Shown piece by piece: positions 19,006 through 64,000 of a stretch of 64,000 nt of DNA (position 1 is its first letter; each line of letters opens with the position of its first letter). Under the pieces are notes generated by a model. It did no database searches and was not told where the DNA came from. It saw only the letters and a list, made by a program, of their open reading frames with translations. The stretch covers positions 3,658,001 through 3,722,000 of the forward strand of contig NC_016472.1 in NCBI RefSeq assembly GCF_000226095.1. The letters are read 5' to 3'. The position numbers and the translations under genes are program-made. Source of the DNA: Thermothelomyces thermophilus ATCC 42464 (taxonomy: Eukaryota > Ascomycota > Sordariomycetes > Sordariales > Chaetomiaceae).

Positions 19006-22000
19006 ATGGCAGACAAACCCAGGCTGCTTGGCAGCTGGCACACATCAGCAGTACAATTTGGCCCAGAGAATCCACAGAGATATCCGACAACTCCCGTCGC
19101 TGGCCAGAAGCGCGGCTATGCTGCTTTCTCGTCCCAACAAGATGCCGACCGCAATGGCACGGGATTGCAAAGAAGAGCCGTTTTGCCGCGGCCGCACTCC
19201 ACTATTCGCTCCGATTCGGACAGCAACGGCGCGGTTGAGCGGCCGCAGCTGGTTGCGAGTGCCATCGAGTATCCAGACGGCTCTGTAACCAAGAATGATG
19301 GGCCCTCGGAGTACTCGCAGAGACAGATGTTTGCTGCTACGCCAACTTCTACCGTTGACCCTCTGCTCTCATTATCGCACCCCGCCTACGGACTGCCCGA
19401 GCAGCTTGTCGCAAACTTTGCTGCGCTAGGCATCAAGGCAATATATCCGTGGCAGAGGCAATGCCTCTGCGGTCCGGGCCTCCTAGAAGGGGAGAAGAAT
19501 CTAGTCTACAGTGCTCCTACGGGCGGCGGCAAGTCGCTGGTCGCTGATGTTCTCATGCTGAGGCGGGTCCTCGAGGACCGCGCGGCCAAAGCCATCGTGG
19601 TCCTGCCGTACGTCGCCCTTGTTCAGGAGAAGGTCCGTTGGCTCCGCAGCATCGTCAGCGGCATCCCGCGCGCGGACGCCGCCAACCTAGACATGCCAGA
19701 TGACAGTCATGGATTCTGGGCCCCTAGGGCCGACAAGGACACCATCCGAGTGGTCGGTTTCTTTGGCGGGAGTAAGATCAGGGCGTCCTGGGCGGACTTT
19801 GATATCGCAGTCTGCACTATAGAAAAGGTGAGTTGGCGACGTACAGCCCCGGGGGGCTGGCTGGCCGACTCTGATTTCGGGTTATTGCGTAGGCAAATTC
19901 TCTCGTCAATACGGCCATTGAAGACTGTTCCATCTCCAGCCTGCGAGCCGTTGTCCTGGACGAGTGCCACATGATTGACGACGACTACCGGGGCTATCTT
20001 ATAGAGCTCATGACGACCAAACTCCTTTGTCTTGGTCAGCCACTTCAGATCATTGGCATGAGCGCGACACTCACGGTATGCAGAAGCTCTTTTCCTCTTT
20101 CTTTTGCTTTCTTCCGCTTTCTTTTCCACGGTCCACCAAGGAGGTGGTAATCTCTAATCGGACATCAGAATATTGAGCTCCTGAAACGGTGGCTTCAGGG
20201 CCATTCTTACGAGACTCGCTATCGACCTGTGCCGATCGAAGAGCATCTGGTGTGCGACGGGAAGATATACGGATCGGAAACCACGGCCGCTTTACTGAAA
20301 GCATCTGCGGCCCAACCGGACACGGGAAGCCAATGCGGCCTGCCGGGACTGCAGCCGATGAGGCTAATCAAGCCTTCAGACCACAAAGAGCTCGCGGACC
20401 CCGTCCGGAATGCCGTCGTTGCCCTCGCAAACGAGACCGTCAGGGCCGGTTACGGAGTTCTCGTCTTTGCGAGCAGCCGTGCTGGCTGCGAATCGGACGC
20501 TCTTCTGATAAGCCGCGTCCTGCCGACATTTGCAGAAGCGGACCCCTTGATTCAGGAAAAGAGGCTGGATTTACTCGGAGACTTGCGCAGCCTAAGCACG
20601 GGGCTTGATCCGAAGCTGGAACAAACCATTCCCTTTGGCGTCGCCTTCCACCGTAGGAACCCCCCACACGCCCAGCTACAGCACTGTACTGACTGTTTTT
20701 AGACGTAGGCTTCTCCGACACTTGTGGCGGATGTTGATGCTGACATTCCAAGGCTGGCCTCACGACCGAAGAACGAGAACTGATCGCGAACGCCTACGAT
20801 CAAGGGGTGCTCAAAGTATGCGTGGCAACCTGCTCCCTTGCGGCGGGTATCAACTGTGAGTCGGAGTCTGCTGTCTCCTCCGGGTTGCCCACTGACGTCC
20901 GCAGTGCCAGCGAGGCGGGTGATTCTCCACGGCGCCCGCATGGGTCGTGATCTAGTCGGTCCTGCTATGCTGTAAGCGCCGTGACACTTGAACAAAAAAC
21001 GAACATGAACAGGAAAGAAAAAAATTACGAGAGACTGACGTGGGTAGTCGGCAAATGCGCGGACGAGCCGGGAGGAAAGGTAAGGACGAAGTAGGTGAAA
21101 CATACTTGTGCTGCCGAAGAAGCGACCTGGACGCCGTGGTAGACCTTATGCACGCGGAGCTCCCGCAAGTATCGAGCTGCCTCATATCCGACAAGCGCCG
21201 CATCCAAAGGTGAGTGCTTTACCTGGCGGTGTGCGAAGGCGGGTTTCCGTTGGCTAATAGTCGGTCAGGGCCTTGCTAGAGATCATCGCGATCGGACTAG
21301 CAACAAGTCGGGAATCCCTCGACGATTATGTCAGTCGGACATTGCTCGCATACTCCACAGAGCCGCGCTCGATCCAAGAGCACGTCGAGGCGAGCATAGC
21401 CGAGCTCCAGGAGATGCAGTTCGTCACGGTCGACGAGTACGGCAGCTTCGAGGCTACTCGGTTGGGCAAGGCCATCGTTGCCTCTTCGCTTGACCCCGAA
21501 GACGGCATATTTATTCACGACGAGCTGAAGAGAGCATTGCAGGCATTCGTCATGGATGGGGATATGCATGTCCTCTACCACTTCACCCCTGTCCATGACC
21601 TCGGCGGCGTCATGGTCAATTGGAAGGCCTTCTGGAATGAGATCCAGCAACTGGATGATAGCGGTCTCAGGGTCATGCACCTTTTGGGACTTAAGCCTGT
21701 CGTGGTCGACAACATGTGGGTGGCTGCTTTTTTTTTTTTTTCCTCGGGATAGTTCGCAAACGGGACGTAGCTGAGACACGAGGCAGGCTCCGCGGAGGCA
21801 TTCTGAGAGAGAGCACTGCCGAAGAGAAAGAGATGGCACGACGCTACCGCCGGTTCTACCTCGCGCTGCAGCTGCGAGATCTCTGCAACGAGATGCCCAT
21901 CCATCGGGTCGCCGAAAAGTACGATATGCCACGCGGGTCTATCCAGAACCTGGCGCAGACTTGCCAGGGATTTGCCGCCGGGATGATCAAGTTCTGCGAG

Positions 22001-22575
22001 ATGATGGGCTGGGGGTGGGTTGTTTTTTCTCTTGCTATCACTTGGAGCTTGCTGAGATCCCCTCCCCGCTAACGATGTCCAAGGGCCATGGCCGCTGCCC
22101 TCGACCACTTCTCGGAGAGGCTGAACGCTGGCGCAAGGGCCGACCTCCTAGCACTTTCGAAAATCACGTTTGTGAAGAGCAGAACCGCGTAAGGCCGATC
22201 GATAAAGGGGGGCGCAAAGCTGGGATGGTGAATGAGCGCGGGCTAACTTTTTTTTTCCTTTGCCAGACGGATATTCTGGGACAACGGATTCAAGACGATC
22301 GCCGCGGTTGCGAATGCGCATCCGGAGGAGCTCCTCCCGGTCCTGATGCAAGCGCAGCCCAACAAGGTGAAGCTGGGGGCCAAGGACGAGCAGAAGTTCA
22401 AGGACAAGCTGCTGGCCAAAGCGAAGATTATCGCCGACTCTGCTAACCGGCTATGGGGTAAACTCTCCCACACACCCTTTCCTTTCTGTGGTTTCTTTTT
22501 TTTTTTTTTTTTTTTCGCATTCCCGGATTTACTGACCTTTCTGTAGAGATGGAGTTGGAATATGATTACGAGTAG
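19006..22575 (+). CDS. HELQ/POLQ-type superfamily 2 DNA helicase
   Basis: Ski2-like 3'-5' DNA helicase of the HELQ/Pol-theta-helicase group, which acts at stalled forks and in crosslink repair. Exons: 19006-19827, 19893-20075, 20169-20652, 20703-20704, 20753-20855, 20905-20971, 21048-21209, 21269-21715, 21787-22014, 22084-22188, 22267-22457 and 22547-22575 (940 aa). Walker A is SAPTGGGKS (about 169-177), motif II DECH (297-300), motif III MSATLT, then RPVPIEEHLV. The HHAGLT motif, LAAGINLPARRVI and QMRGRAGRKG (motif VI) follow. After the helicase core come winged-helix and helical domains and a C-terminal helix-hairpin-helix-like segment (AQTCQGFAAGMIKFCEMMGWG, WDNGFKTIAAVANAHPEEL). No polymerase domain follows, so HELQ rather than full POLQ. 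The 2-nt fourth exon is needed to keep the frame and restore the second His of HHAG. The ninth exon start is chosen for frame (71-nt intron before it). Confidence 0.9.
20653..20752 (+). other. two back-to-back introns separated by a 2-nt exon
   Basis: Intron A 20653-20702 (50 nt) begins GTAGGA and ends CTGACTGTTTTTAG. Intron B 20705-20752 (48 nt) begins GTAGGC and ends CTGACATTCCAAG. Between them lies AC (20703-20704). Every usable donor upstream leaves phase 1 and the only usable acceptor downstream needs phase 0, so a single intron breaks the frame. The AC restores it as CAC, the second His of the family-invariant HHAG motif. Confidence 0.65.
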
Positions 22576-24006
22576 GCGTGAGAGTTTCCGACATCGCGCA
22601 AGGTGCCGGCTTCGCAACTACCAATTGGCGCTCTTGGGAAGCGCGAGGGCCTTGGCATGAATCCTTAGCTCTTGGTTTTCGTGACAGCATGCTATTGTCG
22701 ATTACGTGCTGTCCGTACGTACAAACACTGACGAGTGTTGTCGCTGAGCCGAGAAATTGAGCTCGGCGAACTCTCAATGGGGATCTTGTTTTTATCGATG
22801 CAAACCAACAGGGGCGTCCTGGGCGCCGTCCCGGAGATTGGGGGGTCAAATTCTGGCCCGTTGCTACAATTTCCGACTTGGGTCAATCAATGCGCAGAGG
22901 CGCAGATGCGTCATGCATACAAGGTGAGCAAGCAAGCTCTTTCGGCCACTGCGGGGAGATGCTGTACATACATGGGCCGCGGCTGCCTTCTTCCCAGCCA
23001 GTCTCCGCTGGCACATTCCCCTTTCAGCGCAGCATACAACGAGCTGCACCAGCATCTCAGCACTGTCGCTTCTCGTTGGCTCAATTCGGGTGTTTGTACA
23101 TACGTACAGTCTGTACCTCTGTATATACCTACATTACATACATCGTGCAATGGGTACAAGTCATTCGTAGTGTAGCAATACGGTTCGTCCTCAAAAAGGT
23201 TGCAGCTATGGGAATGGTCTCCCCGCTCCGGAAGCGAGTGAGGACGGACCTGACCTCTTGTCTACCTCCCCTGGGGGCTTGGCATAGTCATTGGTGCTGC
23301 CTTCTGATGTATGTGTGTGTCTGCTCTGTGGAAGGAGTGTGACAGCCCATCTGCCTTCGCCTCATTGAGCCAGCTGGACGACATTACAGCCTCACCACAC
23401 TGCCCGCCATCGTTGGTAGGCTAGGGCCCTCCCCCCCTTCTCTTGTTGCAGCATCATGGAGAAAAGGCAACTCCCGTCCCTACCCCGAATCAACCACACC
23501 ACCAGCATGGTCGTTTGGTAGGGGAGGGGAAGGAAGAGAGGGAAAGGGGCGGGGGGGGGGGGGGGGGGGTTTGGTGGGAGAGGGAGAGGAGAGGGGGTTG
23601 GGGTTTCGTTCAGATGTCTCGGGCTTAGTTCTGGTTGCTGCCACAAAGCGGCCTGTCTCTTAAATGTACTATGTAGACTATGTAGGTTTATTGCCGAGGC
23701 CAAGTCTTTCGTGTCGTGTCTTGCCGCCTTGCAAGAAATTCCCGGTCACATTTTTCTTGCTTTCTTTTTCCTCTTTCTAATTTTCTTTCCTACTACTCTT
23801 CTGTTGTGTTTGGCCTAGTCTTGAGTCTTTTGTTCGCTTCGCCTCTGACTTGCCAGCCCACTGCGACTTTGTGGCTTTGTTTCGTTTCCCCCGGTTTGAC
23901 ATATTGGCTGCCCTTTTGCAGCCCAACGACGGCGCCACTCACAAAACAGAGAGAGTGGGTTCCTGACTTACATTGTATGTACCTGCATCGCATAACACAA
24001 GGAACC
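22576..24006. other. intergenic between HELQ gene and small hypothetical gene
   Basis: 1.4 kb with GTAC-rich patches (22.71-22.73 and 23.09-23.15 kb), a 19-base G run (23551-23569) and a C/T-rich stretch near 23.72-23.90 kb that could be a promoter for the downstream frame. No gene seen. Confidence 0.5.
23551..23569. repeat. 19-base G homopolymer
   Basis: An uninterrupted G run inside a G/A-rich stretch (about 23515-23600); potential G-quadruplex. Confidence 0.9.
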
Positions 24007-38313: not shown

Positions 38314-39845
38314 ATGGCTACCGACAAGGGTCTCGAGGATGTCCCCGAGGGTACGTTTGTTCTCGCTCTCTTCCGCAGGTCGCTTTACGACTCCCCCCGA
38401 GCAGTGCGCCGATATCCCCTGGGGTCACTGCGATGCTCGCTTAACACCCATGCACAACGGTGCCGAAAACTATGGGAATAGAGTCGCTAATTGTCGTCTC
38501 CCCCTACAGGACAGATCGAGTCTAACTACGATGAGACCGTCGACTCCTTCGATGAGATGAACCTGAGGCCGGAGCTTCTTCGCGGTAAGCGCTACCTCTG
38601 ACCTGCGCACCCCGGTGGCAATTGGGCAGCCACTAACGATACGAAAGGCATCTATGCGTACGGTTTCGAGCGCCCGTCTGCTATTCAGCAGCGCGCTATC
38701 ATGCCGGTCATCAAGGGTAAGGACGATCATCCTTGCGATCACAACGTCCAATTGGGCACTAACACTGCGATCAGGTCACGACGTCATTGCCCAGGCTCAG
38801 TCCGGCACCGGCAAGACCGCGACTTTCTCTATCTCGGTTCTGCAGAAGATCGACCCGAACCTGAAGCAATGCCAGGCGCTTATTCTCGCCCCAACTCGTG
38901 AACTGGCTCAGCAGATCCAGAAGGTCGTTGTTGCCATTGGCGACTTCATGAACATTGAGTGCCACGCCTGCATTGGCGGTACTAGTGTCCGCGAGGACAT
39001 GAAGGCCCTTCAGGACGGCCCTCAGGTCGTTGTCGGCACTCCTGGCCGTGTCCAAGACATGATCCAGCGTCGTTTCCTCAAGACGGACAACATCAAAATG
39101 TTTGTCCTGGACGAGGCCGACGAGATGCTCTCCGTATGTGAATTCTTGTTACCTCTCTATCACTCACAGATCAAGTGCTAACAGTTGCCAGCGTGGCTTT
39201 ACTGAGCAAATCTACGACATCTTCCAGCTGCTGCCGCAGTCTACCCAGGTCGTCCTGCTCTCCGCTACCATGCCCCAGGACGTCCTCGAGGTCACGACCA
39301 AGTTCATGCGCGACCCCGTCCGCATCCTTGTCAAGAAGGACGAGCTTACCCTCGAGGGTATCAAGCAGTTCTACATTGCCGTTGAGAAGGAGGACTGGAA
39401 GCTCGACACCCTGTCGGATCTCTATGAGACTGTGACCATCACGCAAGCCGTCATCTTCTGCAACACCCGCCGCAAGGTCGACTGGCTCACCGACAAGCTC
39501 ACCGCCCGCGACTTCACCGTCTCGGCCATGCACGGCGATATGGACCAGGCTCAGCGTGACCTGATCATGAAGGAGTTCCGCTCGGGCTCCTCCCGTGTCC
39601 TCATTGCCACCGACCTTCTGGCCCGTGGTATCGACGTCCAGCAGGTGTCGCTGGTCATCAACTACGACCTTCCCGCCAACCGGGAGAACTACATCCACCG
39701 CATTGGTCGTGGCGGTCGTTTCGGTCGTAAGGGTGTTGCCATCAACTTCGTTACCGCCGATGATGTGCGCATGATGCGCGAGATTGAGCAATTCTACAGC
39801 ACCCAGATCGAGGAGATGCCCATGAACGTGGCCGACCTGATTTAA
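38314..39845 (+). CDS. tif1: eukaryotic initiation factor 4A, DEAD-box RNA helicase
   Basis: The RNA helicase of the eIF4F cap-binding complex, which unwinds 5'UTRs for 43S scanning. Exons: 38314-38350, 38510-38584, 38648-38716, 38775-39133 and 39192-39845 (397 aa, the normal length). It begins [20 protein letters not shown], with the Q motif [13 protein letters not shown]. Then come AQSGTGKT (motif I), PTRELA (Ia), DEAD (II), SAT (III), [11 protein letters not shown] (IV), [10 protein letters not shown] (V) and [11 protein letters not shown] (VI), ending [11 protein letters not shown]. Short exons cluster at the 5' end, as is common for highly expressed fungal genes. Confidence 0.97.
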
Positions 39846-45837: not shown

Positions 45838-48800
45838 TCACATAACAACACACTTCCCCTTCTTGGCTCTGCTTCCCGGCCCGCTGCCACTAGCGCCGCC
45901 ACCCGTCCCCGGTCTGCCCCTTCCGCCCATCCCGAACGCGTCCCGGACGCTGTAAGCGTCGGCCGTGACGTCCGTCCAGGCGGCGCTGCTGGCAGCGTCG
46001 AAGTCCGCCTCTCCCGTCCTGCCGCCGCCTCCTCGCTTCGTGCTCTTGCTCCTCGTCGACTGCCCGCTCCACCCCCGCCGCTTCGCGTCCGCCACGTTCT
46101 TAGCCGCCGACCGCCCCGCCCTGCTCCGCCTCCGTCTCAGGCTCGGCAGCCGTCGGGAGAGCCTCCCCGTCGAAGTTGTCGATCCTGGAGCCGGGGGCAC
46201 TGGGGGGACTGGGGGGACTGGGGGTACCGAGTTGGATCCGGGAGGCGGGAGGGGTCCGCCATACATGGTGCTGATGTGGGGTGGTTGTGATGGTGGTGGT
46301 TGTTGCTGCTGTTGGTCCTGCGGGCGGAGGATCGAAGCCTGGGTCTGCGGTCGCGGGTGACGAGGGATGGGAGCGAGGATTGGCGTCTCGGCGCGGCTTT
46401 GGGAGGGTTGCCGTTCCGGCGGGTCGAAGGCGCCCGAGATTCCCTTGGGCGTGCTAATGATCAGAGGCATGTCCCCGACGGGAGGCGTGCTGACTGTGCC
46501 GACATCGTCTAGCGGCCGCCTGGGCTGCGGTTCGTGAATGGTGGCGCGGGCATGAAACTGTGCGGTGGGCGACTGTGGCCGTGGTCGCGGGAAGGAGTAG
46601 TGCTGCTGCTGGGAGACGGGGCGGTGGTACGAGGTGCGGCGGCTAGTGTTGGGGTTCGGCTCGCCCTGCGGGGGAGGGAGAGCCTGGGAGAAGGCCTCGC
46701 CGGCGTTCATGTTGACGGGCGGCGCTGAGTAGGGATATCCAGTCGGGGCGGCGTTGGTGTTTATTGGCATCGGTTGGATCGGCCAGGTCCTCGAGACCGA
46801 GATACGCCGTACCAAGGGATCCGCGGCCGGCGGCTCATCTGAGGGAGGAACAAGGCTGCTGCTGGCCTGCGTCGCAGCCTGCACCGCCGCCTGGACATCA
46901 AGAGTCGCCGGATAGCCGCCCTCTGGGGAGACGGAAGCCGTCTGCGTACCAGTTGTGGTTGCAGTGGCTCCACCATCTGCTGTCTGGGGTGAGGCAGGTG
47001 ACACCATGCTCGTTTGAGCAGGTTGCTCAGGGTTACTTTGGTCACGCGAGACCTCTTGTCGCACCGGCGCCAGCGCAGGCGAGTCGGGTGGGGAGACGTC
47101 GTAGATATTCTCGCCTTCGAGATAGCGCGAGCTCCGTGACGCCGGCCGTGCAGCATCTTCGTTGGCTGACGGGCCGCCCAGACTCCCGCTGCGCTGCCGA
47201 GATTGAGCATGCGGAAGGGGGGCAGCAGGGGGCAACGGTGAACCGGCTACACCCGGGGGAAGAGATGGAACAGGAGGGACAGGCGGGACCGGCGGGACCG
47301 GCGGGACCGGGGGAATGCCCGAGAGCGACGGAAGCGGTGGGACGGGTGGAACGGGTGACGAGAACCGGTTGGCCGATGTTGCTGTGTGAGCTCGACGGTG
47401 CTGATGATGATGTATCGACGCCGACGAGTTGCGCAGGGCTTTCCTGTCTGGCCTCGGTTCTGCATCCTGCCCGGCCGGCTGCGTAATTGGGCCGACCAGG
47501 GGGAGAATGGCGGAATGGCGGAGGAAGGAAGGCAGATCGCACGGATCCTCCTTCTGATAGGGGGGCGGCGGCGGGACCCAGTTGTCGGCATCGCTCTCGT
47601 GGGGATGCTCGGCCCGCCCGTCGGCTCTGCGATAAACAATGTGGCCGGCAGCGGCTGCTGACGGATGGAGCCGGCGAGTGTTGGCGGCCGCGGTGGCGGC
47701 ACGGCGCAGCGTCGTCCCGGACCGGGGGCTTGCATGGGAGTATGGCGCGTCCAGCGCTTCCTGCTCTTCGATCGACTGCGTCTCGGCATCGTCGCTCGTC
47801 TCCGTTTGCTGCGTCGCCCTGGTGGGGGGAACGCCGATCCGACGCGGTACAAGAGGGTCATCGTCGCCCGCCCCCGACTGGCTGGAGGTCTGGGTAGGTA
47901 GCGGAGGGGGGCGGGAGGTAGTTGTCGTGCTGCGCAGGACGGCGGCGCCATGGTTTCGCCTGTTCTGGGCCACCGTCCGTCTCCGGACAATAGCAACCTC
48001 GGTGGCCATGTCGCGGTGCTCTTCCTCTAGCACTTCCGGCTCCTCCGTAGTGCCGACCTCGATAACGCACTCCCTGGTGGTGCCGTTGCTGACGGCATAG
48101 TCAAAGTCCATGATAGTGATGCGGCCACCGTCGACGAAGTCGACCGCCTCCTCCTCCGTCAGGCCCATGTTGGGCGCTAGTACACCGCGAGCGGCTACGA
48201 CCAAGCGCTCCTTCATGCTGGAGTCGGAAAAATCGGCCACGAACTTGACCGTGTTGACGCCCTCCAGCTCACCGACCTTGTAGCCGGCGACGAAGGTGTT
48301 GCGAAGCTTGTCGCAAAGAATCTGCCACTGCGGTACCCTCACCGAATCGTTCTCCTGCATCCTGGCGCTGGAGCGGATGGACGGGCCGCGGGAGAGCCCG
48401 CTCCCGTTGGAGCCGTTGTCGGCACCGGCACTCGCGGCCTCGGGCACCGCGGCGAGATCCTCGGGCACGCCATAGAGCCAAACGTCCTTGCCTTGGAAGC
48501 CGGCCGAGACGAGATCGCCGTGGTAGGAAGCCGCGGGAAGTGTGCAGGGGAGCAGGCGAGCTTGAGAGTTGGGACTGGGCACCGGCCCGGTAAAGTAGGT
48601 CGTGCCATTGCGCAGGTCATCGATGCGCACGGCTCGGAATGTCTCGAAGCTCCTGTCGTAAGTGAAGGTCCAGGCGGCGTCTTCGTAGGTGCCGTTCTGT
48701 ATCAGGACGGCATGGCTGCAGTCGCGGCTGGTGTTGGGAAAGAGGATCGAGGTCGTCCAGAGCGCACTGATATTGTTGTCATCGGACATGTGGCTGGCAG

Positions 48801-49832
48801 GATCGTAATAAGGGGCGGTGAGGATGACCGTGTTGGGCTGGCACGATTGCACCGTCGTGCCAAGGATTTGCGTCCCGTCGAAGGAGAAGGTCAAGGCGTC
48901 GACCGAGTCGCACTTGACGGCTCTCCTGTCGGTAGCCAGGGCCCCCGGATTGATGGACGAGACCTCGATGCCGCCTTCGTAGGCGGCGGCCAGGACGGAG
49001 CCGCAGGGAGAGAGCGCGATGGCGCGGGGGTTGTGGTCCAGGATCATAGAGTGTGTCCGCTTTGGCGGCTTCTCGTTGAGATCGTATATGTCCACCTCCA
49101 TCTCGGTCAGCAGGACGGCCAGCTTGGTGCCTTCGTCGTTGATGCACGTCGCGGCGGGGCGGCGCAGGATCTTGAACTCCCTCTTGACGACGATCTCGGG
49201 AGCGCGGAGGTCGAGGACGTGTATCCTGGACGAGTTATAGGCAAGCAGATGGTGCCCTCTCGGCGAGGGGCTGAACTGAATGTCTTCGCCGCTCGGGGAC
49301 GACGAGGAGCTGATCGAGTTCGAGATGATCTTGATGATGGTGCGGCTGGGACGAAGGTACGCCTCGAACAGGTTGCGTTTGACTTCCCTCGCAAATAGCC
49401 GGCGGAGCTTGGGCAAGTCGTCGTCGCTGGTGGCCTTGGGCGGGCCATTATGGCTCATGGAGTACGACGGGCATCTGGCGAGGTGGTAGGCGTATAGGTG
49501 GGCTTGCTGCGCGACACTCCTCCATTTCGAGTTGAGCAGGGCCAGCGACGCGAAGCCATTGGGGTCGGTAGCCCGGAGGATTCTATGACATCGGGTAAGT
49601 ACAAGAGCGGACAAGACAAGAGCAAGCCTGGGCGGCGACGACGAAAGACATATAATAGAAGCGGCGCATACTGTTCGATGATTTCATCCGGGAGGCGCTC
49701 GAAGGCGGGCGGATCGGTGGGCTTGAGGCCGTCGTCGTCGTCATCGTCGTCGTTGGGTATGACGATGGGCTTCTTCTCAATCGATGACCGCCTGCCCTCG
49801 CCGGCGTCGGTAACCACGTCGCTGTCTGCCAT
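45838..49832 (-). CDS. F-box / beta-propeller protein with Pro-rich tail and C-terminal CaaX box
   Basis: Exons 49672-49832 and 45838-49582 (1301 aa). An acidic N terminus (poly-Asp) leads to an F-box that spans the intron: AFERLPDEIIEQ then ILRATDPNGFASLALLNSKW. A WD40-like propeller follows (about 130-560), with FSPSPRGHHLLAYNSSRIHV, GTKLAVLLTEMEVDIYDL, NPRAIALSPCGSVLAAAYEG and DALTFSFDGTQILGTTVQS. The second half is disordered, rich in Pro, Ser, Arg and Gln, with repeated PPVP units at two places. The last residues are KKGKCVVM: a polybasic stretch and a CVVM prenylation box (Met favours farnesyl). Such a protein could tether an SCF-type ubiquitin ligase to a membrane; that is inference. 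I know no characterised homologue with this exact layout. Confidence 0.85.
47268..47325 (-). repeat. 9-bp coding repeat giving PPV units
   Basis: GGCGGGACC repeats on the plus strand encode consecutive PPV units in the F-box protein. A second set (46190-46230, GGGGGGACT units) encodes another PPV run near the C terminus. Both resemble SH3/profilin-binding proline repeats. Confidence 0.75.
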
Positions 49833-53970: not shown

Positions 53971-56900
53971 CTACTTCCGCCCCTTAGCCCAAGCCTCCAC
54001 CTTGCCCATCAGCCCCTTCAGCCCGATGCCCCTCTCGCAGTTGGCCTCCAACCAGGCCTCCATCTTCTCCCTCACGGCCCTCATCCCCCTCAGGACGGGC
54101 ATCTTGCCCCCTTCCTCCCTCTCGGCGAAGGCGGCCGGGTTCAGCAGCAGGTCGAAGCACTCGGCCCAGATCTCGGTCTGCCAGTACCGCTTCAGGTTCT
54201 CGCGGATGCGGTACCGCCTGCCGCCGGCGCCCGAGGTCGCCAGCCCGCCGGCGTCGCACCGCACCGTCTCGATGTACTTGCCGAACAGCAGCACGTGCAG
54301 CGTCCCCGCGAGGCCGTGGTAGTCGATCTGCCACGTCCAGGTCCGGCCCTCGCGCATCTCGGCGCAGTCCTGTGCCGTCGTCTTCCAGTCCGCCACGAAG
54401 CGCACGTCGGGCGCGAACGCGCGCATGTCGATGCCCCGGCCAAAGTCGATGAGCGTGATGCCCCGCGACGCCCAGCCGCCGGCGCCCGAGCGGTGCCATT
54501 GCGAAGAGAGCTGCTGCTGCTGCGCTTGCTGATCGTGGGAGTGGCTGCCGCCACCGGTCAGGTGGTCGAGACGCAGCAGGCAGTTGTCGGCCTTGATGTC
54601 GCCGTGCATGATCTGTTTCAAGTGCAGCGCCTCGACGGTGCGAAGGAGCTCGATCGAGAAGAACATGGCCAGCTGCTCGTCCATGACGCCCGACGCTTCG
54701 CCGCGGAAGAGGTTGACCACGTCGAGGAGGGTGCCGTGCGGGTAGTAGGGCAGGAAGAGGAATCCCTCGTCTTGATATAGGTGCATCTCGAGGGCCGGAG
54801 ACAGAGAGGCAGTTGCGCGGTGTTGGGGCCCCAGGCGGGAGTGAGCGAGCCGCATCATGTAGAACTCCCACGGTGTCGGCGGGTCTTCCATCTTGAGTGC
54901 TTCCCGTTCGTGGCGGCGGTTGTGTGTGCTGGCAAAGGCGCCACGGCCCATCATCGCAACGGGCCGATTCTCGTCCCCATCGTTTGCACCGTCGAGGGAG
55001 CTGCTGTCCGGGTAAGAGTTCTCGACGAGATACACGGGGGCGAACGCGCCCGCGCCGAGCTCCCTCCTGATTGTGTACTGGGACTTGACCTCGGGGAACT
55101 CGAGGACGACCGCAGTACCCAAGTTGCCCGTCTTGTCGGTGCTGTTCCTGCTCCCCTTGCCAGCGGCCTTGGCAAACTTGCGAATCTCAGCCCCTCGCTC
55201 ACATCTCTCATCTCGGTGGTCGTAGAAGCCGCTGTAAGAGCTGAGGGGAGGGTGGATGTTTGCTAGAATCTCGGCCCGAATGCTCTCATCGACGGGGTTG
55301 CACTGGGTCTCCTTGATGATAGGACCCTTGGGAGCTAGCGCTTTGGGGGCAAATGGTTTCCCCGCAGGTGCTGGCTTTGCTTTTGGGAGAAGGGGTTGGG
55401 GAACTTTATCCTTGGGGCTTTCGTTTTCCACAACCTCTCGCAGGGGGCTGCTGAGCGGCTCCAGATCGAAGTTCCCGTCCCCGTCTTCATCCTCAACCTC
55501 ATTCTCGTCCTCGTCCTCGTCTATCATCTCTTCGCCTCGTCTCCTAGACGGCGTTTTGCCATATCTGCTATGATCGGATGTCATGTCCAGGGAGGTTTCG
55601 GTCCTCTCCGTAATCGGGGTCATGAACGGGAGGCGATTGTTAGCCACCTCGGCCGGATCCCTGTATGGCCGCCGTGTGGGCACGTAGTCTTCAGGAGGTA
55701 TCGGCACGAACATGGTTCTCGTTCTAGGAGGTTCTATGCCCTCGTTGTCGTTTCCTTCATCTTGCTGCCCGTGGGTCAGATCCGAGGTCAGGGTCTCATC
55801 TCGTTCCTCAGCATCTCCCTGGATGTCGGGGATGTGTTTGTGCATCGAGAAGTCAGACCAGTCGCTGGCGACGCTCTTTCCGTCCGAGTTCTCGTCATCA
55901 ATATCATCCCTCGCCTCGTCTTCCACATCATCCGCTTCGCTCGTTGGGACATTGGTTGTGGTAACTGTGCTCTCGGCACCGCTGGTGTAATCATCGGACT
56001 CAAAGCCACGCTCTTCATCGCTGGCCCCCAGTCCTTGAACCGCCGGCTTGATTGGAGCGTTGAAGATATCATAGATGTCATCAGTTGCTGCCTTGGTATG
56101 CAGTGTCATTGTTGGTTCAGCCGTGGACCGTCTCTTCTTCTTGATCTTTGGCCCAGAAGGCGAATCCAGCTTCGCTTTGACTACAGGAAAAGGTTAGAGA
56201 AGAGGAAGCATTTGCAAGCTCCCACGAGGGTTCAAACGTACTGATTTGCGTCTCGTTCACCTCGATCACCTTCTTCTTCCTCGGCTTCGACTCCTTCGGG
56301 TAGATAGGGGCGCCGTTCTCATCGAGTCGGAGAACGTCATGATGCACTGCCAGTTTCTGTGAGACGCTGTCTGCTAAGGCACTCACGGCTGCTGCCGAAT
56401 TCTCGTCCGAAACGCGAGGGGCCTCCTCGTCTTCCCATTCGTGGCCGAGCCACCCACGATTCGCAGCCCACACCTCCTCAAAACTAAGCTCAGTACCCGG
56501 CTCGTCGGGAGTTGGATACACGGCTCGCAAATCAACAAACACACGTTCTCTCTTGCCGGTTGTGGGATTCACTGTCACTTGAACCTCGTGATGATGGATT
56601 GGGATATGTGATTGCGCAAGCTGCTTGGAGAGCGACTGAGTACATGACAGGCCAGAGCACCCATACATTAGTCCTATATTGATCAACATCTTGTTGTGAC
56701 CGGGAAAAAGACAGGAATGTGGCTTACCGGATCCCTGAAAACAGCCATCTTTGTGCTGCTCTTCTTGCCACCTGCCTTCAATGTCTCACCGGCCCAAGGC
56801 CTGGGCTCCATCGTGTTCTCCTTCTTGCGGTCAGCAAGAGATCCAATACTATCCCACCCCTTGGATCCGGCGCCGCGTGATGACAGCGCTGAGGCTTTCG

Positions 56901-57720
56901 GCTCGGCATCGGCATCGGAAAAGATGGTCATCTTCGACCGCGCCGGTTTAGACGACGGGCCGCCGAGCCCCGCCGGTTGCCTGGGGGCCTGGGGGTCACG
57001 AGGTGCGGCGGCGGCGGCAGAAAAGGGGTCGACCTTGGCCGCAAGTGCTGGTCGAGCTACCGGCAGGGCTGGGGAGGACGGGCCGTCGTTGGCGTCCGCC
57101 CGTTGCGCCCTCCGCTTCTCGAACTCGCCAAACTTGCGCAACAGCCGCGCTGCGGGCCGAGCCTCGCGCTCTATGCCCAGCTTGTAGACCTCCTCTGCCT
57201 GTGCCCATCTGCCGGCGCCCTCGAGCCAGGCAGCGTATTCTTCGTAGAAAAGGGCAAGTCCTTCGCCGATCGAGTGTCTCGAGAGGAAGACGAAAACCTC
57301 GCGCGGCGCGTCGGAGAAGAGATTGATGTAGTGTAGCCACAACCTGAGATATCGCGGGTCGTTCTTGTATTGAGCCGAGCCCACAAACGCCTTGGTTGCG
57401 CGCTCGAGAAGAGTGTGCAGCTGGGACTGCGGGGTGGCCTGGGCCGAGGGGTACGCGTCGAACGTCCAACGGACGTAGCGGTCGTAGATGTCGAGAGGAT
57501 CGTCCGACTCGGAGATGGCGGCAAGCTCCTCCTCAAACTCGGCGCGGATGCGGTCATTAACATCCTTGGTATCTAACGGCGACGGCGTCGACTGGGGTTG
57601 AAGCGGGGACCGGGAAAACAGCTCGGCAAGCTTCTTGGCTGACCGGCCGCTCGGGAGCGCCTGGATGTTTTCTTTGTGCTCCTCAATTATGTCAAAGTTG
57701 ACGGGGTCGTTGGGTGCCAT
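53971..57720 (-). CDS. bub1: spindle checkpoint kinase Bub1, MadBub architecture
   Basis: Kinetochore kinase and scaffold of the spindle assembly checkpoint. Exons 56728-57720, 56242-56635 and 53971-56180 (1198 aa). Features in order: KEN box 1 (HKENIQ, 16-18); a Bub1/Mad3 TPR domain (about 50-215, with YLRLWLHYINLFSDAPREVF); KEN box 2 (KKENTM, 300-302); a GLEBS Bub3-binding motif (TELSFEEVWAANRGWL, about 379-394); acidic linker; and a Cdk/Mps1-site-like segment LPFMTPITERTE near 650. The C-terminal kinase has GAGAFAPVY (838), Lys 892 (EALKMED), HGDIKADN (988-995) and DFG (1041-1043), all key residues present. Two KEN boxes plus an intact kinase in one protein mean it probably does both the Mad3/BubR1 and Bub1 jobs. 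The second splice is fixed by continuity into TVNPTTGKRERVFVDL. Confidence 0.95.
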
Positions 57721-58440
57721 CTTGGTGGTAGCGGCCGTCCTGCGACGGCAGAGACAATGAGGGGTCCCGGTCGCTTTTTTGAAGACTTAGTTTTGGACTT
57801 GGACAAGGAAGTCGAAATGCGCAAGGCAGCAAGGTAAACAGGTCCGAAAGAGGGGCAAAGAGAAATGAGTGTCGTTCTTGGATCGTTGACCTACCTGACT
57901 CGGGAAAACGGGGATGTCTTAGAGAAAGTGGACGCGCTGCGGGTTGGGTAATTTTGAGGGGTCGCGGGTCGCGACGAATCAGACACCCACTTTCCTGTTT
58001 CTGTTGGCTGGCTGAACCAAATATTTATCTCGTCGCCGTAGCAACCATCTACAGCTGCCCGCCATCTGGCAACAGACGATAAGTTGACCCTCTCAACTTA
58101 CTCAAGTGTCCTGCGTACAAGTGAGCGCCATGAGAGCCTCAATTTCCATTGAAGAGACTCGTGCGTTGCGCGAGTTGGGTCACTTGTAGTTCGGTTCGAA
58201 CCTTCGGTTCTCCCAACCCACCATCCTCTCTGCCGGATCTCCGGCCCTGCATAAATTCACCCGAGGCATCCTTGATACGGACATGACGACTGGCACGTAG
58301 ACAAGATTGGCTTGGTATTTTCTTCATTCTTTCTACATCATCATAGCCTCCATTTTCATGAATCGTACGTGAAGGTCAGTTTCATCAGTGGTAACGCTTT
58401 TGCCAGCCAACCGCCAAACCTGCCATTTGGCTTTCCCACT
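57721..58440. other. intergenic, bub1 promoter and enolase 3' flank
   Basis: 720 bp. GC-rich near bub1 and AT-richer toward the enolase stop. No element I can name with confidence. Confidence 0.5.
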
Positions 58441-60243
<1,803 letters not shown>

Positions 60244-61805
60244 AGGTTGAGCTTGGTTGGCAGTTCTCTCGGTGTGGTGGGATGATGAGTTGCTGAGAGA
60301 AAAAAAGGAGAGGTTAGGTAGGAAGTCGATCGGTGCTCGGAGAAGCTTGATGAGCGTAGGTTGACCTCAGGCTCGGGGAGGGGCAGGATTTGTTTTGGTG
60401 GGGTGATAAGGCGCTGCAGGGGGCGACAAGATTGTTAAGTGGTTGTTAGGACGCGCAGGCTTTCTACTGTAATTTCCTTAACAGTTTGGTGATGAGAACC
60501 GATCAAATGCTCCCGTCTCCATCCCTGCCCTAACTTTCCGTCCCGATACTATTGGCATGCAGCCCGAAACGACGGCCTCTTCCGTTGGGGACCTGCACGA
60601 CATTGAAACCTGGAACTCAGTCTTGCCCAGCCAATTCTGGTGAGTGCGGGGGTCAGTGGCCGCTTGTAAATCCGTTGTCGGAGCTCTCCCTACCTAACCT
60701 TGGAAGCAGAGGCGGGGCGGCTACAGGTAAGAAAGTCGGACCGACCTTCTCGCGAAAGCTCCCCTCTCCTGACGACGACTGTCTTAAACACTCTGTATAT
60801 AGGTATAACATGGTACGTTTAGATGGTAACTTCTTTGATCCAGAATTGCGAGCTTGCAATGCGTGAAAGCCGGCGTACACTTGGCTACCTTCCAACCTGC
60901 CCCTCCTCTTACTACCTCATTACACAACACTACCCCGCTGCGGGTTCCAAAAGTGGGTCTCAAGCTTGGATCTGTCCCCACAGAGAGCACCAGATGGTTC
61001 TGCGACCAACTTAGTTTGACGGTTGCGTTGAAAGTTCTCTTCGGGTGTTTCTGACGGCCAGGTCGAGTTTCAACAAAATACAGGCTCCCGTCCCTCGTCC
61101 GTGGAGCTTTATTTTAAGCTTTAGTTCCTAATTGTCCTTCTGCAGCCCGAGCTTGTCCAGGCCAGCGACGAAGAACGGTTGCCCCTTCCCAGTTCACGGG
61201 CAGTATGCCGTTTCAATTGTCTCGATGATGGTCTTTCTTGGACGACTAGCTACCCAGGTAAGGCAAATACAGTATGTACAACACCAATGTCAGCGGTTCG
61301 TGCAATGTTCGAAACCGTTGGCTACCCACCGCCAAGGTGTGAGAACGTAATGAATGTGCGTAATGATACATGGGCGGTTCTGCCGCGGTAACACAATGTC
61401 CACAGGACTCAAACCAGCTTCCGGAAGCGATCTGGTTCCTGGCCCAAACACACCAGGCCCAGGGGGTACAAACATACAACTTGGTCATCGATACTTCTCA
61501 TTCTCCATACTATGTAGTCCCTTATTTCTTTTTCTGGAAGCTCAAAATACAGGTTTTCGTTAAGTGGTTCTCCATCGTCCTGACCGCCTGCCAAAAGCAG
61601 TAAGCCAGAGCCGGCCACCCGAAGCAAAGACAGGGGCCTGTGCGGCATTCGTCGGCGCAGGGTCTCAAGGCAAGCCATTCGAGTTTCCAATTCGCATGCA
61701 AAAAATGCTTCAATCTGACGAGAGCTGTACGTAGTGTACGATAGGGTCCACTGTACATCTAAGTTACCGTCGCTCCTTTATAAGTCCATCATTCCTTCAT
61801 CCATA
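60244..61805. other. intergenic, divergent enolase / aminopeptidase promoters
   Basis: About 1.6 kb. Short frames only (up to 104 codons), none recognisable; no motif copy of the 11-mer. Confidence 0.5.
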
Positions 61806-64000
61806 ATGTTTCGTTCATCCGTTTCTGCGCGTCCTTTATGCCGTGGAGTGCAGCAGAGACCAGTTGCGCGAGCAGGAGCATTGCTGCAGTTCCGCGCCCA
61901 TCAGGCGTCAAGAAGGTTTACATCACGGTACGTCCTCGCATACGCAAGGACCCGCACCTACGAGGGGCGGGGAGCTAATCGATCGTCACCCCGCAGTTAC
62001 TCCGTCTTGATTCGCCTACCCTCATCCTCAGCAACAGCCAGTCCCTTAAACCGTCATCGACCGCTCTCTCAACCCCAAACGCTCCGTCTCCGTAGCCTGC
62101 CTGTCCGTTACTGCTCTTACCGCCGCCACAACATGTGCCGAACACACGCTGCGGCCGAAATGGCAGGTGGGGTGAACGTGCAGGCCAGGGAACTGCTCCC
62201 CACCAACGTCATCCCCCGGCACTACAATATCACGTTGGAGCCCGATTTCAAGAAGCTGACCTTTGACGGCACCGTCGTCATCGACCTCGACGTCGTCGAG
62301 GACTCCAAGTCCATCTCGCTGCACACACTCGAGCTCGACATCCATGACGCAAAGATCACCTCGGGCGGGCAGACAGTCAGGTCGGTCGCGTCCTCCCGCC
62401 GTCCCGTCCTCCTTCCTCCTCCACGCCTGCTTACTCGGTGCACAGCTCGTCCCCTACCGTGTCGTACAATGAAGACACCCAGGTCAGCACGTTTGAGTTC
62501 GGCAATGCCGTCACCAAGGGAAGCAAGGCGCAGCTCGAGATCAAGTTCACCGGCCAGCTCAACGACAAGATGGCCGGTTTCTACCGGTCGACCTACAAGA
62601 ACCCCGACGGCAGCGAGGGCATCATGGCCGTCACTCAGATGGAGCCCACCGACGCCCGCCGATCGTTCCCCTGCTTCGACGAGCCCTCTCTGAAGGCCGA
62701 GTTCACCGTCACTCTCGTTGCCGACAAAAAGTTGACTTGCCTGAGCAACATGGACGTCGCGTATGAGAAGGAGGTCAAGTCCGAGCAGACGGGTGGCATC
62801 AAGAAGGCCGTCACCTTCAACAAGTCTCCGCTCATGTCCACATATCTGGTGGCTTTCGTCGTCGGCGAGCTGAACTACATCGAGACCAACGAGTTCCGGG
62901 TACCGGTCCGCGTTTACGCCCCGCCCGGCCAAGACATTGAGCACGGCCGGTTCTCGCTGAACCTGGCCGCAAAGACGCTCGCGTTCTACGAGAAGGTCTT
63001 CGGTATCGAGTTCCCGCTTCCCAAGATGGACCAGATTGCCATCCCCGATTTCGCCCAGGGCGCGATGGAGAACTGGGGCCTCGTCACCTACCGTGTGGTA
63101 GACTTGCTGCTGGATGAGAAGGCCAGCGGTGCGGCGACGAAGGAGCGGGTAGCCGAAGTGGTGCAGCACGAGCTGGCGCACCAGTGGTTCGGCAACCTGG
63201 TCACGATGGACTGGTGGGACGGCTTGTGGCTTAACGAAGGGTTCGCCACCTGGGCGTCGTGGTACTCGTGCAACATCTTCTACCCGGAGTGGAAGGTTTG
63301 GGAGTCGTATGTGGTCGACAACCTCCAGCGTGCCCTCTCCCTGGATTCGCTCCGGAGCAGCCACCCGATCGAGGTTCCTGTCAAGAGGGCCGACGAGATC
63401 AACCAGATCTTCGATGCCATCTCGTACTCCAAGGGTTCCTGCGTCCTGCGCATGATCTCCACCTACCTCGGCGAGGAAACGTTCCTGGAGGGCGTCAGGC
63501 GGTACCTCAAGAAGCACGCGTACGGCAACACCCAGACCGGGGATCTGTGGGCGTCTCTCGCCGAAGCCAGCGGCAAGAAGGTGGAGGAGGTGATGCAGGT
63601 CTGGACCAAGAATATCGGTTTCCCCGTGGTGACGGTGACGGAGAAGGACGACAAGACCATTCACCTGAAGCAGAACCGGTTCCTCCGCACCGGCGACACC
63701 AAGCCCGAGGAGGATCAGGTCATCTACCCTGTCTTCCTTGGGTTGCGCACCAAGGATGGCATCGACGAGTCGCAAACTCTGACCAAGCGGGAGGATACCT
63801 TCACAGTGCCGAGCACCGACTTCTTCAAGCTCAACGCGAACCACACCGGTCTGTACCGCACTGCCTACTCGCCGGAACGGCTCAAGAAGCTGGGCGATGC
63901 CGCGAAGGAGGGACTGCTCAGTGTTGAGGATAGAGCCGGCATGATCGCTGATGCTGGCGCGCTCGCCACCTCTGGCTACCAGCGCACCTCGGGCGTCTTG
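61806..64000 (+). CDS. M1-family zinc aminopeptidase (Ape2/Aap1 type), partial at 3' end
   Basis: Puromycin-sensitive/alanine-arginine aminopeptidase of family M1. Exons 61806-61927, 61997-62380 and 62446 onward; the right edge cuts the protein in its C-terminal helical domain. The first ATG gives an Arg/Ser-rich, acid-free leader (MFRSSVSARPLCRGVQQRPV) typical of mitochondrial import. A second in-frame ATG at about 62133 (MCRTHAAAEMAGG) matches cytosolic starts in the family. The core begins LLPTNVIPRHYNITLEPDFK. Substrate motif GAMENWGL, zinc site HELAHQW with distal Glu in NEGFATW, and the catalytic Tyr region SYSKGSCVLRM are all present. The first intron (69 nt) is a multiple of three without stops, so retaining it would still give an open frame. 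Confidence 0.93.

Follow-up and report, generated by a model that had tools for sequence, protein, structure and literature searches.

A candidate two-nucleotide exon between two minimal introns in a fungal POLQ-type helicase gene of Thermothelomyces thermophilus

In the window, i.e., the whole 64,000-nt stretch of Thermothelomyces thermophilus DNA analysed here, a gene for a POLQ-type (HelQ-like) helicase is encoded on the forward strand. When its 11 introns are spliced and the dinucleotide AC is included, the coding sequence is open over 2,823 nt and specifies 940 amino acids plus the stop codon. The helicase gene is otherwise intact, and its sole frame break is situated between the GVAFH and AGLTTEER peptides. 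The gene, the junction and the neighbouring elements are arranged as follows (coordinates of the window):

19006..22575, + strand: POLQ-type (HelQ-like) helicase gene, from start to stop codon, 12 exons when AC is counted
20169..20652, + strand: exon 3, ending in GVAFH plus the first base of the second His codon, phase 1
20653-20702, + strand: intron A, 50 nt, GTAGGA donor, CTGAC branch point, TTTTTAG acceptor
20703-20704, + strand: candidate two-nucleotide exon AC, completing the second His codon of HHAG
20705-20752, + strand: intron B, 48 nt, GTAGGC donor, CTGAC branch point, TTCCAAG acceptor
20753..20855, + strand: exon after intron B, beginning AGLTTEERELI, phase 0
20856..20904, + strand: intron 3, 49 nt, CTGAC branch point, a neighbour in the size class of introns A and B
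21716-21786, + strand: intron 6, acceptor set by the frame only, the least secure of the modelled introns

Seven Pfam families, none of them a polymerase, were recognised in the helicase protein; they include DEAD, Helicase_C, HTH_61, POLQ_helical and DUF7898. A search of solved structures returned 67 matches, of which the top six are helicase chains of polymerase theta (POLQ), the best scoring 430.6 bits; archaeal Hel308 structures reached at most 202.9 bits in this comparison set, which contains no eukaryotic HELQ. A POLQ-helicase-like gene without a polymerase domain has been described in many Pezizomycotina and named HelQ in Hypoxylon, whose HelQ cDNA is given as GenBank MW530496 (PMC8469720). 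The present protein agrees with this definition of a fungal HelQ, combining a POLQ-type helicase core, as indicated by Pfam and by the polymerase theta match, with the lack of a polymerase domain. Considering the top structure matches together with the published family description, the designation HELQ-type in the earlier note, imprecise as it stood, should be taken to mean fungal HelQ, which is a helicase of the POLQ type.

The nine introns of the model other than A and B are based on the reading frame, on motifs and on matches to domains. For intron 6, an alternative acceptor at 21770 was rejected because it gives stops, and the one at 21786 preserves the frame. Poly-T runs occur inside introns 6 and 9, and a run of 19 G is located downstream of the gene at 23551-23569 (+), a place in which assembly length errors would be likely.

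At the junction, exon 3 ends with TTC CAC C at position 20652 and the continuation from 20753 reads GCT GGC CTC (AGL), while intron A, AC and intron B together occupy the 100 nt in between. Intron A has the sequence GTAGGA...ACTGACTGTTTTTAG and intron B the sequence GTAGGC...GCTGACATTCCAAG. AC is flanked by a canonical acceptor on its 5' side and a canonical donor on its 3' side (TTTTTAG-AC-GTAGGC), with a usable intron on each side. Inclusion of AC gives CAC C-AC GCT, which is read as H-H-A, i.e., HHAG. The letters are as the earlier note had described them, with two minimal introns, GTAGG donors, CTGAC branch points and AC in between; its claim that AC restores the frame and writes the second His of HHAG is borne out by the open 2,823-nt coding sequence and by the uniqueness of the FHHAG solution. 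The reading frame needs AC, as all four alternative outcomes stop early: in the translated spliced coding sequence, the first stop appears at codon 546 when AC is skipped, at codon 513 when intron A or both introns are retained, and at codon 508 when intron B is retained.

To cover the splice solutions near the site, single and tandem introns with GT or GC donors and AG acceptors were enumerated together with nested GT-AG introns, each intron being at least 38 nt long. The enumeration yielded 11 in-frame open solutions, and the AC-containing tandem pair is the only one that preserves the motif, writing FHHAG. Three of the other ten do without a GC donor; all three use the GT at 20640 and thereby lose VAFHH. 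The remaining seven require at least one GC donor, and the closest to the motif among them, a single GC-donor intron at 20670-20752, is in frame and reads VAFH-RRNPP-HAG. No single intron at the site gives FHHAG, whatever its terminal dinucleotides, and a single non-canonical intron was rejected on this ground. The assertion that the upstream frame ends in phase 1 at every usable GT requires a correction, since the GT at 20640 is in phase 0; it is, however, a very poor donor, and its use removes VAFHH.

For comparison, 13 introns of the window were taken as controls, nine of them from the helicase gene and four from an eIF4A-like gene:

38341-39845, + strand: eIF4A-like gene with four well-defined introns of 58, 58, 63 and 159 nt, its frame unbroken between 38341 and the stop

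As the eIF4A-like gene carries no frame error over its four introns, no general assembly trouble is seen in the window. The control introns are 49-159 nt long, which places intron A one nucleotide above and intron B one nucleotide below the shortest control. A CTRAY branch point is located at a distance of 9-20, counted from the branch-point A to the intron end, in 12 of the 13 controls, the exception being intron 6 of the helicase gene, which has none; the corresponding distance of the CTGAC element is 10 in intron A and 9 in intron B. The GTAGG donor occurs in 0 of 13 control introns. Donor pairing was scored against the U1 consensus, and donor A forms 4 and donor B 5 of 9 possible pairs, compared with 5-7 in the controls and 2 for the GT at 20640. 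Introns A and B resemble the controls in length and branch points, whereas their GTAGG donors are weaker than those of the controls.

The stretch across the junction aligns without gaps to polymerase theta in the solved-structure match, and polymerase theta has HHAG at this place. No relative was found when genome contigs were scanned with the whole protein, nor in two scans of viral contigs; a second scan of genome contigs, with a query taken downstream of the motif, returned relatives that are all prokaryotic. The second query starts 10 residues past the motif, and the motif therefore did not select the relatives, of which the best 80 of 431 were considered. In these best 80 of 431, the motif is HHAG in 29, HNAS in 25, HNAG in 24 and HNAA in 2; the first His is present in 80/80, and the second position is occupied by His in 29 and by Asn in 51. 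The ten-residue motif segment contains no gap in 79/79 fully aligned loci of this set; the 80th locus, L014, was set aside, its alignment beginning one residue inside the segment. AC would thus encode part of a conserved position, which lies within HHAG in polymerase theta, is His or Asn in the relatives, and is ungapped in the 79 fully aligned loci. The second His had been called invariant in Ski2-like helicases, and the 51 Asn residues contradict this; since Asn is tolerated at the second position, the exact His is less constrained than was claimed.

The frequency of such an arrangement was estimated from 200,000 dinucleotide-shuffled versions of the 100-nt stretch, in which the first five and the last two bases were fixed; as the criteria were set after the site had been seen, these counts, like those from the window given below, are guides and not strict probabilities. 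With motifs ignored, some open 2-nt exon between two introns of at least 44 nt was obtained in 4,997 shuffles. An additional branch point for the first intron was present in 689, an additional GTRNG donor for the second intron in 76, and all these steps together with the His codon in 9 of the 200,000. When exon lengths of 2, 5, ... 20 nt were admitted and the minimum intron length was 40 nt, 6,483, 889 and 89 of 50,000 shuffles passed the first three steps. Of the 100-mers on both strands of the window that start with GT, 6,961 in all and each given AG as its last two bases, 245, 12, 3 and 1 passed the successive steps, and the single 100-mer passing every step is the AC site itself.

Based on the frame logic, the splice motifs and the uniqueness of the motif-preserving solution, we consider it highly probable (roughly 85%) that the dinucleotide AC at 20703-20704 represents a real exon of the fungal POLQ-type helicase gene. 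A different history is conceivable, in which the true or ancestral sequence has CAC CAC followed by one ordinary phase-0 intron of about 100 nt, and two bases of the exon were lost, either through an assembly error or through a real small deletion, so that the gene would be misread or recently broken. The direct 100-nt intron, in which donor A is joined to acceptor B, would suit this history, with its branch point at 9 and a length within the control range of 49-159 nt, and the break sits at a repeated CAC-like context. On the other hand, the internal branch point, the TAG acceptor, the in-frame AC and the second donor would all become a coincidence (9 of 200,000 shuffles, or 689 when only the branch point is added), no homopolymer lies at the spot and the remaining gene is intact, which makes a loss of two bases unlikely. 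An error of one base, previously regarded as the main alternative, does not suffice: a single-base change can mend the frame but yields H-AG or another residue, and HHAG would require two missing bases. Other frame-keeping splices are still less probable, and we give them very little weight. The GT at 20640 (113-nt intron, product without VAFHH) and the GC at 20670 (83-nt intron, product with VAFH-RRNPP-HAG) both leave the frame open; yet the former makes only 2 of 9 U1 pairs and the latter lies in a context, GCCCAG, that is poor as judged by eye, and the 20640 product loses, and the 20670 product interrupts, a stretch that is gap-free relative to polymerase theta and to 79/79 fully aligned relatives among the best 80 of 431.

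AC could also be a regulated cassette, with inclusion leading to the helicase and skipping through the 100-nt intron leading to an early-stop transcript that is degraded, the two together acting as an expression switch. Such a switch would be consistent with the early stops of all four incomplete outcomes and with the weak donor A, and parallels are reported in Hypoxylon stwintrons, in which splicing occasionally joins the distal sites and shifts the frame (PMC9024468), and in a regulated micro-exon of Trichoderma Xlr2 (PMC11121469). However, four folds of the region show no structure beyond shuffles (z of +1.27, +0.64, +0.26 and +0.48), and stwintron splicing is overwhelmingly consecutive according to PMC9024468; we regard a cassette as improbable. 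In a true stwintron, a splice element of one intron would itself be interrupted by the second intron, excision would proceed from the inside out and nothing would be retained between the two. The tandem geometry of two minimal introns recalls this class, as does the [D1,2] stwintron reported for the same gene of Hypoxylaceae (PMC8469720, PMC9024468), but both nested readings found depend on the 20640 donor and lose VAFHH, and a stwintron of the [D1,2] type begins with GGU (PMC8469720) while the base before GT is C here. No donor, branch point or acceptor at the site is interrupted without loss of the motif, and an inside-out order is not forced. We give a stwintron next to no probability; the comparison with stwintrons made earlier holds as an analogy, although the pair of A and B is itself no stwintron. 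Recursive splicing with a zero-length exon does not describe the site either, as AC separates AG from GT. No donor-type stwintrons were found in the other nine helicase introns, and the first eIF4A intron (159 nt) holds three donor-type stwintron candidates, none with an internal branch point.

If AC is a two-nucleotide exon that is regularly used and present in the mRNA, introns A and B would be recognised by the spliceosome through intron definition. In Pezizomycotina, splice sites are reported to be paired across the intron (PMC6616335, PMC5639578), and a 2-nt exon would therefore present no recognition problem as such. The two introns would be excised in two separate and consecutive reactions, because 2 nt is presumably too small for two spliceosomes to act at once. 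The sequence does not force the order, the donor, branch point and acceptor being contiguous within each intron. We lean towards intron A going first, since acceptor A is TAG with 8/11 pyrimidines, compared with AAG and 7/11 for acceptor B, and since the removal of A puts CAC beside donor B and raises its U1 pairs from 5 to 6 of 9. In some transcripts donor A is probably joined directly to acceptor B, which would result in a frameshift and an early stop. An RNA structure that orders the splicing was rejected on the z-scores of the four folds (+0.26 to +1.27). The possibility that A and B are recent copies of each other was rejected as well, as 1,211 of 5,000 motif-keeping shuffles reach their alignment score; the bodies of the two introns are unlike beyond the motifs, and thus no recent duplication is visible.

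Ultra-short exons are already known, and one-nucleotide exons reportedly occur in mitochondrial genes of Ophiostoma and Ceratocystis. A 2-nt exon is rare, with precedents in the one-nucleotide exons of Fusarium CYP621A and Arabidopsis APC11, and AC would be the second nuclear fungal exon shorter than 3 nt found in our literature search. The CYP621A exon, which lies in the PKG motif, was found by the kind of phase reasoning applied here and is supported by 18 SRA reads; it is presented as the first for a fungal gene, exons of 2-5 bp being known in Arabidopsis, Drosophila and humans (PMC12940212). Both cases concern a nuclear fungal gene with a phase mismatch in a conserved motif and an ultra-short exon between short introns with canonical AG and GT; the Fusarium exon, in contrast, is 1 nt long and has at least 20 Fusarium orthologues and RNA reads behind it, whereas AC is 2 nt long and is proposed for one locus from its sequence. 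The one-nucleotide exon of APC11 is supported by RNA, and a version in which it was replaced by TT was spliced in Arabidopsis protoplasts and mis-spliced in rice protoplasts (PMC4674806). In APC11, as at the AC site, the exon is far below the size suited to exon definition and the frame depends on it, and the spliced TT version has the same length as AC; however, APC11 is a plant gene with a branch point 44 nt upstream in an annotated intron of 422 nt, whereas introns A and B are near the minimum. VPS55 is described as a further plant case (PMC8831610).

The [D1,2] stwintron of HelQ in Hypoxylaceae (PMC8469720, PMC9024468) shares several features with the site: it is reported in the same kind of POLQ-helicase-like gene, consists of two U2 introns removed in consecutive reactions, and shifts the frame when spliced between distal sites, which is infrequent in Hypoxylon stwintrons (PMC9024468). 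It differs in being nested, in having a forced order and in keeping nothing between the introns. The stwintrons sensu lato of Lipomyces likewise combine twin introns with closely spaced donors, but they are nested, removed from the inside out and without an exon between them; such twin introns were proposed to arise by new splice sites in or beside an older intron (PMC7138796). The type of a stwintron can change through local mutation at one position (PMC9024468). No mention of HelQ, POLQ, helicases or small exons was found in PMC12403724. Tentatively, and with considerable doubt, we suggest that the pair of A and B with AC and the Hypoxylaceae HelQ stwintron may represent the same site in alternative twin-intron states, which would differ by an inner intron displaced by about 3 nt. 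Stwintrons are rare, with 117 of the [D1,2] type in one genome (PMC8469720, PMC9024468), and to find one in a gene of this kind is therefore suggestive, an argument tempered by the many introns of the gene.

If this relation holds, micro-exons and stwintrons would be interconvertible, and the loss of A or B would shift the intron by 2 nt, from phase 1 to phase 0 or back, making the AC site a visible intermediate of intron sliding in a conserved motif. Since the stwintron was reported in the same kind of gene of another fungal family, a testable route between stwintron, micro-exon and small intron shift can be proposed, which bears on an unsettled matter in the evolution of introns. A two-base exon that occurs naturally between minimal introns would also show the limits of intron definition in fungi, and would point to a class of genes in which automatic annotation will go wrong.

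Further open frames and domain matches lie elsewhere in the window. An open frame of 1,281 codons at 45841-49683 (-) contains a DUF7165 domain (709 bits) and has no solved-structure match at E 0.001. In the region 53974-57786 (-), a protein kinase match at 53974-56193, below the Pfam cut-off, and a Mad3/BUB1 match at 56686-57786 lie on the same strand and possibly belong to one BUB1-like gene with introns. An M1 aminopeptidase gene occupies 61719-64000 (+) as two overlapping open frames and is cut by the end of the window.
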